A stretch of 64,000 bases of DNA from the NCBI GenBank assembly GCA_018402345.1, contig JAGYIV010000010.1, positions 372,001 through 436,000 on the forward strand, read 5' to 3'. Numbering within the stretch: the first letter of the stretch is position 1; every line of letters starts with the position of its first letter. Shown in pieces: positions 2,261 to 8,567 of this stretch. Source of the stretch: Terrimicrobiaceae bacterium. GTDB taxonomy: Bacteria > Verrucomicrobiota > Verrucomicrobiia > Chthoniobacterales > Terrimicrobiaceae. The notes beneath the pieces were generated by a model. The model searched no databases. It worked only from the letters and a program-made list of their open reading frames with translations, and had not been told where the DNA came from. The position numbers and the translations under genes were made by a program.

Positions 2261-2761
2261 TTAGGCGACGGCGGCGGTCAGGCGGTTGGGGTTGTAGTGT
2301 GTCTGTATCTGTCCGTGGGCCCCGTAGGTTCCTGGGATCGCACCGGGGTTGCTTATGTTAAGCAATTGCCGTGCCGACTCCACGCACTGGGCGAGAAGCA
2401 TGCGGTTTTGGCGGGTGCGGCGCTGTGTGCGGGTGATCAGATCGTTGATCTCGTCAATCAATGCACGAAGAAGTGGCTGATGATCAACTTGAAAGCTCTG
2501 ACTGAGCGCGGAAAGGGTGATATTTGCCGGTTTCCCGAGGGCCAGGGCGATATTGCTCACGAGTTGCTCGCGCTGCTGGCGGCAGTGCGTGAGCTTGGCG
2601 ATCTGCTCGTCCACCTCGACATTGATATCCAAAAACCCGGAGGGGTCTTGGTGGATGATGCATTGTTGCTGGCGGTCAAACAGATGCAAAAGCCCGCCGT
2701 ATTCTTGAAGCTCGAATTGCAACGCTGAAACGATCTCGTGGAATTTTTGTTGGATGTTCAT
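2261..2761 (-). CDS. flgN: FlgN-like flagellar export chaperone
   Basis: A 166-residue, mostly helical, Gln/Leu-rich protein. FlgN-family proteins bind the C-terminal helices of FlgK and FlgL in the cytoplasm before export. The evidence is size, helical heptad character (for example LQFELQEYGGLLHLFDRQQQ) and position directly before flgK; there is no strict motif. The start codon overlaps the flgJ stop (ATGA at 2758-2761), implying translational coupling. Family assignment is moderate because FlgN sequences are poorly conserved. Confidence 0.65.
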   Translation of the reverse strand: MNIQQKFHEIVSALQFELQEYGGLLHLFDRQQQCIIHQDPSGFLDINVEVDEQIAKLTHCRQQREQLVSNIALALGKPANITLSALSQSFQVDHQPLLRALIDEINDLITRTQRRTRQNRMLLAQCVESARQLLNISNPGAIPGTYGAHGQIQTHYNPNRLTAAVA

Positions 2762-3096
2762 AATTCGGTAAGGGCTTTGGATTTGTTAATGAGTTGGGCT
2801 TGAAGAAGTGAGGAAATGCCGGTCGGACCGCCGCTCATGGCATCCGAGATCGTGCTTGTGATGAAATAGTTGTAGGTGCCAGTCTTATCCGCGCCGTTTT
2901 CCGTGCTGTGGAGCATCGGTTGCAGGGCCTTGTCGAGCATCTGCCGCCAGAGCATGGACTCGAACTGTTTGCAGGAGTCGGCAATTTTTGCATCCTCCGG
3001 AGAGGCATTTTTGCCGTTCTTAAGGGCGGACTGCAACGCGCCAAGCGATGAGTCGCTCATCTGCAGCGGGTTGGATTGGAGAGCGGAGATTTCCAT
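2758..3096 (-). CDS. flgJ: Rod-binding protein FlgJ, single-domain form
   Basis: This 112-residue protein matches only the N-terminal rod-binding/capping domain of FlgJ, with the diagnostic stretch FESMLWRQMLDKAL near residue 45 and a Gly-rich middle. The C-terminal muramidase domain found in enterobacterial FlgJ is missing, as in many other phyla, so the enzyme that opens peptidoglycan for the rod must be encoded elsewhere. It acts in the periplasm as scaffold for rod assembly. It lies 1 base after the flgI stop and overlaps flgN by 4 bases. Confidence 0.85.
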   Translation of the reverse strand: MEISALQSNPLQMSDSSLGALQSALKNGKNASPEDAKIADSCKQFESMLWRQMLDKALQPMLHSTENGADKTGTYNYFITSTISDAMSGGPTGISSLLQAQLINKSKALTEL

Positions 3097-4918: not shown

Positions 4919-5731
4919 TTAGAAGTGGACTTGAACGGTATTCGGACCGATCACCTGGGCCTGAAAATCCTTGCGGCTTTCCCTGTTGCGGACGCCCACA
5001 GTCTCCCCGGCCCCGGCCGTGCCAAGCGCAACGCCTTTCATCGAGATACTCATAGCGCCTTGGTTCACAACCACATTGACAGCGTCTCCCTTGTGCACCA
5101 GCGGACGGAGCTTGATGTCCTGTTCGGTCAACGGGCGCTCCTGACCCAAGGTTTGGGCCATCTCATAGATCGAGAGATCCGCATCCGCTGGCACATAGGG
5201 AAGTTTTTGGGAAAGCACATTGGTATTTTTCAAGGCACACACCGAGGAATCCAACCGCTCGCCGCGGTCCAACCGGCGGAGGGTTGTCCAAACGGGGCGG
5301 TAGAGCTTGGCGTTCACGGTCTCGGTCCATGTTCCAACCGTCTTGCCGGAAGCTTCTACACGAAACACCACCTCCATGGAAGGAGTCACAAACCCGCCAG
5401 GCATTTGCTCCAACACCACCCGCCAATCCTTGTCGTTGCGAATTTCCACGCCATTCCAAGGGCGGGCAAAGGACAAGTGCAAATCCCCCTCCACGCCGCA
5501 CCGGGCAATCATTTCCCTTTTCAACGCGTCCAGCACCTGATCGGACCCGATCTGCAGAGTCCCAAGCGAGGTCACCACGGCGGGGACGGAGCCGGATTTC
5601 GGGCCTTCGAACACTTTGGCCACTGGATTGCTCGGCGCGTAGGCCAGCGGCGAGGTGATCTCTCCGAGATCGGCGGCGCGCACGGTAAGCGCCATCGACA
5701 ACGCGAGAAGGAATGCCGGGAGGAGTTTCAT
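4919..5731 (-). CDS. flgA: P-ring assembly chaperone FlgA
   Basis: FlgA is a periplasmic chaperone for P-ring polymerisation. The 270-residue protein has a signal peptide (residues 1-19, ending VRA). Its C-terminal SAF/beta-clip region has the family landmarks RRLDRGERLDSS, a GQERPLTEQDI segment, LVHKGDAVNVVVNQGAMSI, and an ending in NTVQVHF. The start overlaps the flgG stop by one base (TGATG), so the two are probably translationally coupled. The order flgF-G-A-H-I is common in non-enteric flagellar operons. Confidence 0.92.
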   Translation of the reverse strand: MKLLPAFLLALSMALTVRAADLGEITSPLAYAPSNPVAKVFEGPKSGSVPAVVTSLGTLQIGSDQVLDALKREMIARCGVEGDLHLSFARPWNGVEIRNDKDWRVVLEQMPGGFVTPSMEVVFRVEASGKTVGTWTETVNAKLYRPVWTTLRRLDRGERLDSSVCALKNTNVLSQKLPYVPADADLSIYEMAQTLGQERPLTEQDIKLRPLVHKGDAVNVVVNQGAMSISMKGVALGTAGAGETVGVRNRESRKDFQAQVIGPNTVQVHF

Positions 5732-6513
5732 CAGCGTTTGATGTTGTTGGTCTCCTGCATCATTTGATCCGAGGATTGGATCGCCTTGGCGTTCACCTCA
5801 TAGGCACGTTGGGCTAGGATCATGTTCACCATTTCCTCGGCGACGTTGACGTTCGAGGTTTCCAGATGGTTCTGAAGCAATGAACCGAAACCAGCCTGCG
5901 CCGGGGCTCCAAGAACAGGAGCTCCACTGGCTGGGGTTTCCGCAAACAAATTGCCGCCCTCGCTGCGCAAGCCGGCGGGGTTGTTGAACCGCGCCAACTG
6001 GATTTGGAAATTCTGCTGCCCGCCGGGCGTTTCGATCGTCACCTGGCCGGTCGAGGAGATGTTCACATTCAGGGCGTCCACGGGAATCGGTTGGAAGCCG
6101 CCGAGCACCGGCAGGCCGTCATTCGTCACCACCGTGCCATCGGCGGCAACCTTGAATCCACCATCACGCGTGAATGCGGTCGTGCCATCCGGACGCTGCA
6201 CCTCGAAAAAGCCATCGCCTTGGATCGCGACATCCATCTTTTCGCCGGTCTGCAACAACTGGCCTTGGGTGTAGATTTTCGCTGTCGAAACGACGCGTGT
6301 TCCATTGCCGACCTCGACGCCCGCAGGCACGAGGTTTCCCGCACCCTCCTCGGCGCCAACCGCACGGCGCTTCTGGTAGAGCATGTCTTGGAACTCGATT
6401 TTGTTCTTTTTGAACCCGGTGGTGTTCACATTCGCCAGGTTGTTGGCGATGGTGTTCAGGTTCATTTGTTGTGCTTCCATTCCAGTGGAAGCGGCTTGGA
6501 GTGCTCTTAGCAT
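5731..6513 (-). CDS. flgG: Flagellar distal rod protein FlgG
   Basis: FlgG builds the distal rod. The 260 residues are typical. The N-terminus (MLRALQAASTGMEAQQMNLN, TIANNLANVNTTGFKK) and the C-terminus (ETSNVNVAEEMVNMILAQRA followed by YEVNAKAIQSSDQMM) are the classic coiled-coil ends of rod proteins. The central VAIQGDGFFEVQRPDG is the DUF1078 region. It starts 14 bases after flgF. Confidence 0.97.
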   Translation of the reverse strand: MLRALQAASTGMEAQQMNLNTIANNLANVNTTGFKKNKIEFQDMLYQKRRAVGAEEGAGNLVPAGVEVGNGTRVVSTAKIYTQGQLLQTGEKMDVAIQGDGFFEVQRPDGTTAFTRDGGFKVAADGTVVTNDGLPVLGGFQPIPVDALNVNISSTGQVTIETPGGQQNFQIQLARFNNPAGLRSEGGNLFAETPASGAPVLGAPAQAGFGSLLQNHLETSNVNVAEEMVNMILAQRAYEVNAKAIQSSDQMMQETNNIKR

Positions 6514-6527
6514 GGCGTTGTGGTGGG

Positions 6528-7280
6528 TTAGGCGGTTGGTGAACCGAGTGAACTAATGGCTTTCGAAATCAAATCATCATGCGAGCGCATCGCACGCTGG
6601 GAGGCTTCATAGGCGCGGGAAATCGCGATCATGCTGACCATTTCAGCCATGGGAGCCACGTTGCTGGCCTCGATCGAGCCTTGAATCAGGGCCATCTCCT
6701 CGAGCGCCTGCGGATTTTGCCCGGCGGGTCCCTCGAAGTATCCGCCATTGACCCGGGTGAGCGCGTCAGTGTCCTCGATCTCATACAATGCCAACCGTCC
6801 GACCGCATTGTCGCCTTGTGTGATCGTGCCATCGCGGGCCACCGTGAACGCCCCCTGCTCGGGATCGATAGTGATCGGGCCCTCGGCACCGACAACCTCA
6901 AGCCCATCTTTCGTCACAAGTGTATTGTTTTGATTGAAATGAAACTCGCCATCACGCGTGAACAACGGATTGCCGTCGTCCCCACGGACTTGAAAAAACC
7001 CGTCCCCGTCGATCGCGAAATCCGTCGGTTTTCCAGTGGGTTTGTGGTCGCCATTGGAGAAATTGATGCTCGTCGTGCGGGTCGGCATGTGACCGGTGTG
7101 CTGCGCGCCGCCGAAGTCTTTTTGCGCATACTCCATCATTTTCTGGTCATCCGTCTCGATAGCGAAGTCCATTTTCTTGAACCCAGCCACGTTTGAGGCG
7201 GCAAGATTTTGGGAAACAACCGATTGCCATTTCTCCAAGGCCGAGAGCGAGGCCGCATTGCTGTAAATTCCTTCTACCAT
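6528..7280 (-). CDS. flgF: Flagellar proximal rod protein FlgF
   Basis: FlgF is the rod subunit next to FlgG. The ATG at 7278-7280 gives MVEGIYSNAASLSALEKWQS and a 250-residue protein whose N-terminal helix aligns with FlgF/FlgG. A longer reading to 7403 adds 41 residues without rod-protein character and crosses a G-rich tract, so it is rejected. Family marks are NLAASNVAGFKK, FAIDGDGFFQVRGDDG and the C-terminal SIEASNVAPMAEMVSMIAIS then RAYEASQRAM. It is first in the visible operon, so expression of the whole cluster is probably set upstream of it. Confidence 0.93.
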   Translation of the reverse strand: MVEGIYSNAASLSALEKWQSVVSQNLAASNVAGFKKMDFAIETDDQKMMEYAQKDFGGAQHTGHMPTRTTSINFSNGDHKPTGKPTDFAIDGDGFFQVRGDDGNPLFTRDGEFHFNQNNTLVTKDGLEVVGAEGPITIDPEQGAFTVARDGTITQGDNAVGRLALYEIEDTDALTRVNGGYFEGPAGQNPQALEEMALIQGSIEASNVAPMAEMVSMIAISRAYEASQRAMRSHDDLISKAISSLGSPTA

Positions 7281-7292
7281 GCCTTCATTCGT

Positions 7293-7308
7293 AGCATCGA
7301 CCGTGCCA
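7293..7308 (-). promoter_or_regulatory. Sigma-54-like promoter motif upstream of flgF
   Basis: On the minus strand the sequence is TGGCACG-GTCG-ATGCT, differing from the sigma-54 consensus TGGCACG-N4-TTGC(A/T) at one position. It lies 12 bases upstream of the flgF ATG, so transcription would begin about 2-4 bases before the start codon. That near-leaderless geometry weakens the call. Flagellar rod and hook genes are sigma-54 dependent in many bacteria. Confidence 0.3.
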
Positions 7309-7327
7309 TCTCCCAACAAGGGGAAAA

Positions 7328-7347
7328 CCCCCACCCCACCCCACCCC
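7328..7347 (-). other. G-quadruplex-forming tract in the flgF/thiH intergenic region
   Basis: On the minus strand there are four consecutive runs of four to five G, each separated by a single T. Tracts with 1-nucleotide loops form the most stable class of intramolecular quadruplex. It lies 48 bases upstream of the flgF start on the flagellar sense strand and 107 bases upstream of thiH. Confidence 0.8.
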
Positions 7348-7454
7348 GCAAGGCAGATTTTGCCGCCCGGCACCGTCGAGATGTCAGCGCAAAAATTCGC
7401 CACTTGCGGTTCCGGTCAATCCGTCGATTAATACCCCCGCATTTTCGCACCGGC

Positions 7455-8567
7455 ATGAGTTTTTCCAAATCCTTCGATACCGCCTTGCTCCAGAAATCGC
7501 CGCTTCTCCGGCGCTTCGAGGCCATGCTCGAGCCGACCAACGATGCCACGCTGGAATCCCTCGCCGCCCGCTCGACCGCCCTCACACGTCGCCATTTCGG
7601 AAGAACCATGCGGCTCTTCGCCCCGCTCTACCTCTCAAACGAGTGCATCAACTCCTGCGCCTACTGCGGGTTTTCCCGGGAAAACGCCATCCAGCGCGTG
7701 ACCTTGGAGATCGATCAGATGGAAACGGAGGCCCGACATCTGGCGGCGGAGGGGTTCCGCAACATCCTCCTTGTCGCCGGCGAGCACCCGAAATTCGTCT
7801 CCGGCCCCTACCTCCGCCTCTGCCTGGAGCGCCTCCGCCCGTTCATTCCCTCGCTCTCCATCGAGGTCGCCCCCATGGAAACCCCCGATTACTTACCACT
7901 CGTCCAAGCTGGAGCCGAGGGGCTCATCGTTTACCAAGAGACCTACGACCGCGAGGCCTACCGCGCCACCCACCTCGCTGGCCCGAAAAAAGACTTTGAT
8001 TGGCGCCTCGACTGCCCGGAGCGGGGCTACGCCGCGGGATTCCGCCGCATCGGCATCGGCGCGCTTTTCGGGCTCTCGGACTGGCGGGGCGAGGCCATCG
8101 CGCTCGCGGCCCATTTGGAATATCTCCAGCGGGTTTGTTGGAAATCCCAGCTCACTGTCAGCATGCCACGCCTCCGCCCGGCAGCAGGCGAGTTCGAGCC
8201 GACCCACCCCCTCGCCGACCGCGATTTCATCCAACTCCTCTGCGCCGTGCGTCTCGCGTTTCCCGCTGTAGGCATCATCCTCAGCACGCGCGAATCGGCT
8301 GCCTTCCGCAACGTCGTCGCCCCGCTGGGCGTGACCATGATGAGTGCCGGCAGCCACACCGAACCCGGCGGCTACACCGGCCAAGGGCGCGAAGCGCTCC
8401 ATCTCACCGTGCGGGGAAAAATCGTGCCTGTCGAAGGCGCGGAATCCGCCACCGGCCAATTCTCGATCTCCGACGAACGCTCGCCACGCGCTGTCGAATC
8501 CGTTCTCCGATCACTCGGCCTCGACCCCGTGTGGAAGGACTGGGACGCCGCCATCCTCGCCTCATGA
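7455..8567 (+). CDS. thiH: 2-iminoacetate synthase ThiH (radical SAM)
   Basis: ThiH cleaves tyrosine with a SAM-derived radical to give dehydroglycine for the thiamine thiazole ring. The 370-residue protein has the radical SAM triad C64-x3-C68-x2-C71 (CINSCAYC) followed by GFSREN. Also present are LLVAGEHPK and the ThiH-typical VYQETYDREAYRATHLAGPK (an exact 20-residue block), then MSAGSHTEPGGY near the C-terminus. The ATG at 7455 is chosen because similarity begins there; a longer frame to 7209 runs into flgF antisense. It overlaps thiS by 4 bases (ATGA). No thiG is visible and no TPP riboswitch precedes it, unlike thiC at 42235. Confidence 0.88.
   Translation: MSFSKSFDTALLQKSPLLRRFEAMLEPTNDATLESLAARSTALTRRHFGRTMRLFAPLYLSNECINSCAYCGFSRENAIQRVTLEIDQMETEARHLAAEGFRNILLVAGEHPKFVSGPYLRLCLERLRPFIPSLSIEVAPMETPDYLPLVQAGAEGLIVYQETYDREAYRATHLAGPKKDFDWRLDCPERGYAAGFRRIGIGALFGLSDWRGEAIALAAHLEYLQRVCWKSQLTVSMPRLRPAAGEFEPTHPLADRDFIQLLCAVRLAFPAVGIILSTRESAAFRNVVAPLGVTMMSAGSHTEPGGYTGQGREALHLTVRGKIVPVEGAESATGQFSISDERSPRAVESVLRSLGLDPVWKDWDAAILAS

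Follow-up and report, generated by a model that had tools for sequence, protein, structure and literature searches.

An unconserved G-tract within a probable activator-dependent sigma-54 promoter of flgF in a Terrimicrobiaceae bacterium

Upstream of the flagellar gene flgF in a Terrimicrobiaceae genome, we identified a palindromic box and a sigma-54 promoter element that are conserved across the genus, and between them a G-rich tract that is not. Judged from the pattern in related genomes, the box and the sigma-54 element, separated by a spacer of nearly constant length, probably turn on flagellar genes across this bacterial group. We consider it likely, with good confidence, that the locus is an activator-driven sigma-54 flagellar promoter in which the G-tract is neutral spacer filler. 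An earlier note on the same 64,000-nucleotide stretch of DNA (the window) had singled out the tract as a G-quadruplex that could tune flagellar transcription or separate two divergent promoters.

The tract lies in the 174-base gap between flgF, whose ATG starts at 7280 on the minus strand, and thiH, whose ATG starts at 7455 on the plus strand. The first gene of its operon, flgF (6528..7280, minus; NCBIfam model TIGR02490, 186.3 bits, over the curated cut-off) has a start that agrees with the conserved N-terminus and is followed by flgG (5731..6513, minus; TIGR02488, 318.7 bits, over the cut-off). The divergent neighbor thiH (7455..8567, plus) was identified by TIGR02351 (412.6 bits, over the cut-off; translation from 7458). 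FlgN (PF05130) is encoded at the opposite end of the flg run, at 2261-2761 on the minus strand, and an ORF at 2758-3096 appeared FlgJ-like by eye. Read on the flgF strand, the gap holds the palindrome, 4 bases, the G-tract, 19 bases, the sigma-54 element, and 12 bases before the ATG. The tract, at 7347-7328 on the minus strand, reads GGGGTGGGGTGGGGTGGGGG, in agreement with the four G-runs and single-base loops described in the earlier note, which was also right in placing it within the gap and about 20 bases upstream of a sigma-54-like site. As a motif, it could give a quadruplex of four tetrads and three 1-base loops, and it is located at −46 to −65 relative to the predicted flgF start.

Motifs of this kind are rare in these genomes. 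The tract is the sole motif with G-runs of at least three and loops of at most three bases on either strand of the window, and GGGGNGGGGNGGGGNGGGG occurs only once, at the tract, in the 3.14 Mb genome; the one match in the 15 other genomes of the genus is a 19-G run at bases 1–19 of a contig. Under Markov models of order 0–5 trained on the window, 0.003–0.03 occurrences are expected per genome, but this figure is too strict and overstates the surprise, because the tract repeats the 5-base unit CCCCA in tandem, 3.8 times without an error, and can arise by slippage. With two mismatches allowed, 34 of 100 shuffled windows held such a site. We rejected sharing of the tract through plasmids, as a plasmid search gave no match.

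To compare the region with relatives, we used Spartobacteria, Terrimicrobiaceae, and Chthoniobacterales genomes, which are largely metagenome assembled. Of 39 genomes, 18 gave a FlgF match, among them 16 from the genus (own genome included), and the flgF start with its upstream DNA was present in 14 genus genomes (own included) and in two from another family of the same order. None of the 15 other flgF upstreams (13 from the genus, 2 from the order) contained a quadruplex motif in a scan for four G- or C-runs of at least three bases with loops up to 7, covering 180 bases per upstream and 166 in one. The conservation that the earlier note had asked for is therefore absent from all 15, a set to which the closest relative, G005, does not belong. 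That genome, nearest by FlgB (93%) and EBP2 (89%) identity (EBP2 is an activator described below), has no contig that reaches the flgF start: FlgF is matched there over residues 190–250, and a DNA search with the window gave no match in G005 or G010.

The 14-row alignment of the genus loci shows where conservation lies. As the mean of the 13 other rows against the window, identity was 0.89 in the palindromic box and 0.85 in the sigma-54 element, in comparison with 0.27 in the G-tract, 0.30 in the whole spacer, and 0.29 in the flank upstream of the box; the stretch from −12 to ATG reached 0.36 and the first codons 0.81. The columns of the G-tract are conserved no better than unselected flank, and the difference from the box and the sigma-54 element places selection on the elements to either side of the tract. 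The spacer between box and element (7309..7351, minus), which contains the tract, is 43 bases long. Its length is nearly constant across the 14 genus loci (41–44 bases) while its sequence varies freely, tract included, and the tract therefore did not simply enlarge the spacer.

The sigma-54 −24/−12 element (GG-N10-GC), TGGCACGGTCGATGCT at 7308-7293 on the minus strand, has a single mismatch to TGGCAC-N5-TTGCW, at the first T of TTGC. The sigma-54-like site of the earlier note is borne out: every one of the 14 flgF loci of the genus has kept the element, as have both loci from the same order. The distance from its GC to the flgF ATG is 13 bases in this genome, 13–16 bases throughout the genus (14/14), and 25 and 28 bases in the two same-order loci. 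Sigma-54 transcription usually starts 11–13 bases after the GC; from this spacing, the predicted flgF start falls at 7281..7283 on the minus strand, 0–3 bases ahead of the ATG, with +1 near 7282. The genome has one match for rpoN (PF04552, 190.4 bits), and we found no sigma-70-like promoter or terminator in 7150-7600.

Across the genome, 23 sigma-54 sites with correct spacing were found in comparison with 21 with one base less, our spacing control, so the site counts by themselves give no evidence of sigma-54 enrichment. Among the 22 correct-spacing sites that could be resolved (all except L082), several stand before flagellar or nitrogen genes, and the remaining ones lie inside genes or without a clear gene; no flagellar gene was seen downstream of the control sites. 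Two small ORFs with sigma-54 sites (L070 and L073) had no Pfam match. Two tandem flagellin genes at G000:C4:157-158 kb (L071 and L072), the second confirmed by Pfam, carry sigma-54-like sites whose GC stands 54 and 57 bases from the ATG. Other sigma-54-like sites precede a gene resembling an ammonium transporter by eye (L068) and a glutamine synthetase identified by Pfam (L085), an arrangement that an NtrC circuit would lead one to expect.

In all 14 genus loci, a 13-base palindrome, GGCAAAATnTGCC, lies 41–44 bases upstream of the sigma-54 element. The copy in the window, GGCAAAATCTGCC at 7364-7352 on the minus strand, has a predicted position of −70 to −82 relative to the flgF start. The boxes match GGCAAAATTTGCC at 10–13 of 13 positions in 14/14 loci, and an equal box at the same place arose in 0–3 of 2,000 shuffles per locus, the consensus having first been read from these same flgF loci. 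The two same-order loci show weak boxes only (10 of 13), at other distances. The joint pattern of a box, 30–60 bases, and a sigma-54 element occurred 13 times in 16 genus genomes, one genome contributing two contigs, and by coordinates every occurrence is before flgF; the backward control gave none in the same genomes. A relaxed box search in the own genome hit 17 places (20 rows, 3 places being read on both strands) in comparison with 10 rows for the backward control.

Promoters of flgB provide an independent test. FlgB was recovered from 14 of the 16 genus genomes, and each of them carries a sigma-54 element whose GC stands 12–15 bases before the ATG. A profile built from the flgF boxes alone found the box in 11 of these 14 upstreams (at most 1 in 1,000 shuffles each) and did not find it in those of G008, G012, and G007. 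Boxes at flgB are often paired, about 30–33 bases apart, and their distance varies, unlike at flgF. Being a conserved palindrome common to promoters that appear co-regulated, the box has the character of an upstream activating site, and we propose it as that of a sigma-54 activator.

The genome encodes three strong sigma-54 activators (EBP1, EBP2, and EBP3), each with receiver, AAA+, and Fis-type domains, and five further, weak PF00158 matches. EBP2 (G000:C6:374386..) shows the domain order REC, AAA+, Fis HTH (PF00072, 93.1 bits; PF00158, 238.6 bits; PF02954, 56.9 bits), and its loop reads by eye GSFTGA instead of GAFTGA. A perfect palindromic box stands at G000:C6:374306-374318, 67 bases before the EBP2 start. 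Of 15 genus genomes, only 3 show a clear box at EBP2 (G000, G005, and G004) and 2 an arguable one (G003 and G015); in the others it is doubtful or absent, and autoregulation of EBP2 would therefore be local at best. Among the matches listed, EBP2 orthologues occur in 17 of the 18 genomes where FlgF was matched and in 2 of the 21 where it was not. For this count we compared all listed matches above 300 bits and part of the weaker ones, such that a shortened orthologue could be missed, and left out a weak match in G016. Orthologues score 498–852 bits against EBP2 and other matches at most 343. The FlgF genome without an orthologue, G002, is 64% complete, while G028 and G037 have EBP2 orthologues (57% identity) and no FlgF was found in them, which counts against a strictly flagellar role. 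The association with flagella gives a Fisher P value of 6e-8, an overstatement because related genomes are not independent. Genome context and co-occurrence together suggest EBP2 as the protein that binds the box. Relatives of EBP1 and EBP3 occur, among the matches listed, in genomes both with and without FlgF, and EBP1 was on these grounds rejected as the flagellar activator. EBP1 itself (L053 1048-2499) recurs at high identity in almost every relative searched, and the usual acceptor aspartate of its receiver domain seems, by eye, to be replaced.

The elements, their conservation and spacing, their recurrence at flgB, and the presence of rpoN and EBP genes are observed, and from these we propose the following mechanism. 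The gap would contain a sigma-54 promoter from which flgF-flgG and the genes downstream of them are transcribed. An EBP2 dimer would bind the palindrome at −70 to −82, loop or lean across the spacer of 41–44 bases, and drive open-complex formation by RNA polymerase-sigma-54 at 7308-7293. Transcription of flgF would then start 0–5 bases before the ATG and give a leaderless or nearly leaderless mRNA. The G-tract would be private filler that lies outside the transcript, is usually double-stranded in vivo, and is tolerated because the spacer length (43) is unchanged. With the tract upstream of the predicted +1, it should be absent from the flgF mRNA, and we rejected its location inside the message. 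From the spacing, the predicted flgF leader is 2–5 bases in the genus and 14 and 17 bases in the two same-order loci; the available text of PMC10783764 defines leaderless as a 5′ leader below about 8 bases. Among window ORFs of at least 200 aa, SD-like words precede 6 of 37, in comparison with 5 of 37 at a control position, and a near-leaderless flgF mRNA fits a genome where such words are no commoner than in the control.

The most direct alternative gives the tract a function of its own. A quadruplex could fold in vivo on the nontemplate strand and tune enhancer–promoter communication as a species-specific adjustment of flagellar output. Quadruplexes with one-base loops have high stability, and the motif is strong, rare, and located exactly between box and promoter. 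Nevertheless, we regard this reading as improbable: the motif is missing from all 15 other flgF upstreams and the tract columns (0.27) evolve like the unselected flank (0.29), so that tuning of flagellar transcription by a quadruplex, as put forward in the earlier note, was not borne out. As the note itself had named lack of conservation among the signs against the idea, it now stands half refuted. The last G-run of the tract is also part of a competing hairpin, GGGG-TTTT-CCCC, although folding of this strand is within the ordinary range (z −0.81). Lying outside the predicted transcript, the tract would not be opened by transcription from the flgF promoter, and the orientation-dependent effect of quadruplexes on transcription is tied in the available text of PMC7341879 to motifs downstream of the start. 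A related and comparably improbable idea is that the 43-base spacer, turned quadruplex in this one species, folds once activator looping or negative supercoiling has opened it; the fold would shorten and bend the spacer and so set the reach of EBP2 to RNA polymerase-sigma-54. If true, a switch that is otherwise conserved would contain a tunable hinge of DNA.

Three further explanations appear to us slightly less probable still. Slippage of the (GGGGT)n repeat might act as a phase-variable switch, with 5-base steps in spacer length altering the helical phase of box and promoter. In its favor, the 5-base unit recurs in 3.8 perfect copies, and, as the spacer length is nearly constant, a change of 5 bases would matter. 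We nevertheless place very little weight on it, given that the 43-base spacer is the genus norm, no relative shows the repeat (the species being represented by one genome), and high slippage takes more units than these. Misassembly or miscalling is a natural concern for a low-complexity tract in a probably metagenome-derived genome of 17 contigs, but is hardly credible for one inside a 659 kb contig with a spacer length that agrees with relatives. Lastly, palindrome and tract might serve thiH or insulate it from flgF. The genes are divergent in this genome and four relatives, giving 5 of 16 loci with thiH beside flgF (some contigs end nearby). Against this, loci in which no thiH was found next to flgF retain the box and its spacing, the box reappears at flgB promoters, and neither a sigma-70-like site in 7150-7600 nor a TPP riboswitch was seen, the latter following from the absence of any Rfam match up to E 1 in 6900-7900, a result that led us to reject riboswitches and other RNA families in the gap. 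We hold a role for thiH to be very improbable, and separation of divergent flgF and thiH promoters by the tract, the second suggestion of the earlier note, is weak, as it is flgF that the palindrome and the sigma-54 site accompany.

Within the genus, FlgF was detected in 16 of 16 genomes (once only by a weak match) and in none of nine other family members searched, a patchy distribution worth a study of gain and loss. PMC5673642 states, in its available text, that flagellum genes are absent from its genomes except two large ones, which would place Spartobacteria-AMD-G4 among those without; contrary to this, contig NEUK01000024.1 of Spartobacteria bacterium AMD-G4 (L157 and L140) encodes FlgF (62% identity). 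In G007, flgB is also present.

Returning to the sigma-54 promoter with neutral filler, we found no published description of a circuit of box, EBP2, flgF, and flgB among listings of the open-access literature. The circuit is testable (box, activator gene, flgF, and flgB) and concerns flagella in a little-studied lineage of Verrucomicrobiota, whose basal-body operons look, by prediction, leaderless. The lesson of the locus is that the eye-catching part of a conserved promoter can be unconserved filler. FlrC/FleR/FlgR-type flagellar activators have the order REC, AAA+, Fis helix-turn-helix; compared by domains, orthology aside, EBP2 shares this order and likewise co-occurs with flagella, but is encoded outside the flagellar gene stretch seen. 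The flgF promoter is probably an activator-dependent sigma-54 flagellar promoter of a kind already known, for example from FlbD and ftr in Caulobacter crescentus, where, according to the available text of PMC3930126, the activator binds elements upstream of sigma-54 flagellar promoters. The two systems are alike in a REC-AAA+-type activator, in upstream elements, and in flagellin genes with sigma-54-like sites, and differ in phylum, in the box, and in the leader of 0–5 bases predicted here at flgF and flgB. The G-tract resembles the quadruplex upstream of class I pilE in Neisseria, which enables pilin recombination with silent cassettes (PMC6755734, available text), in being a G-rich motif upstream of a surface-organelle gene, but differs in not being conserved. 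Finally, the available part of PMC10783764 lists two Verrucomicrobia as SD-scarce, and the 37 window ORFs likewise show no excess of SD-like words; unlike in those cases, the leaderless state is here predicted from the sigma-54 geometry at flgF and flgB.
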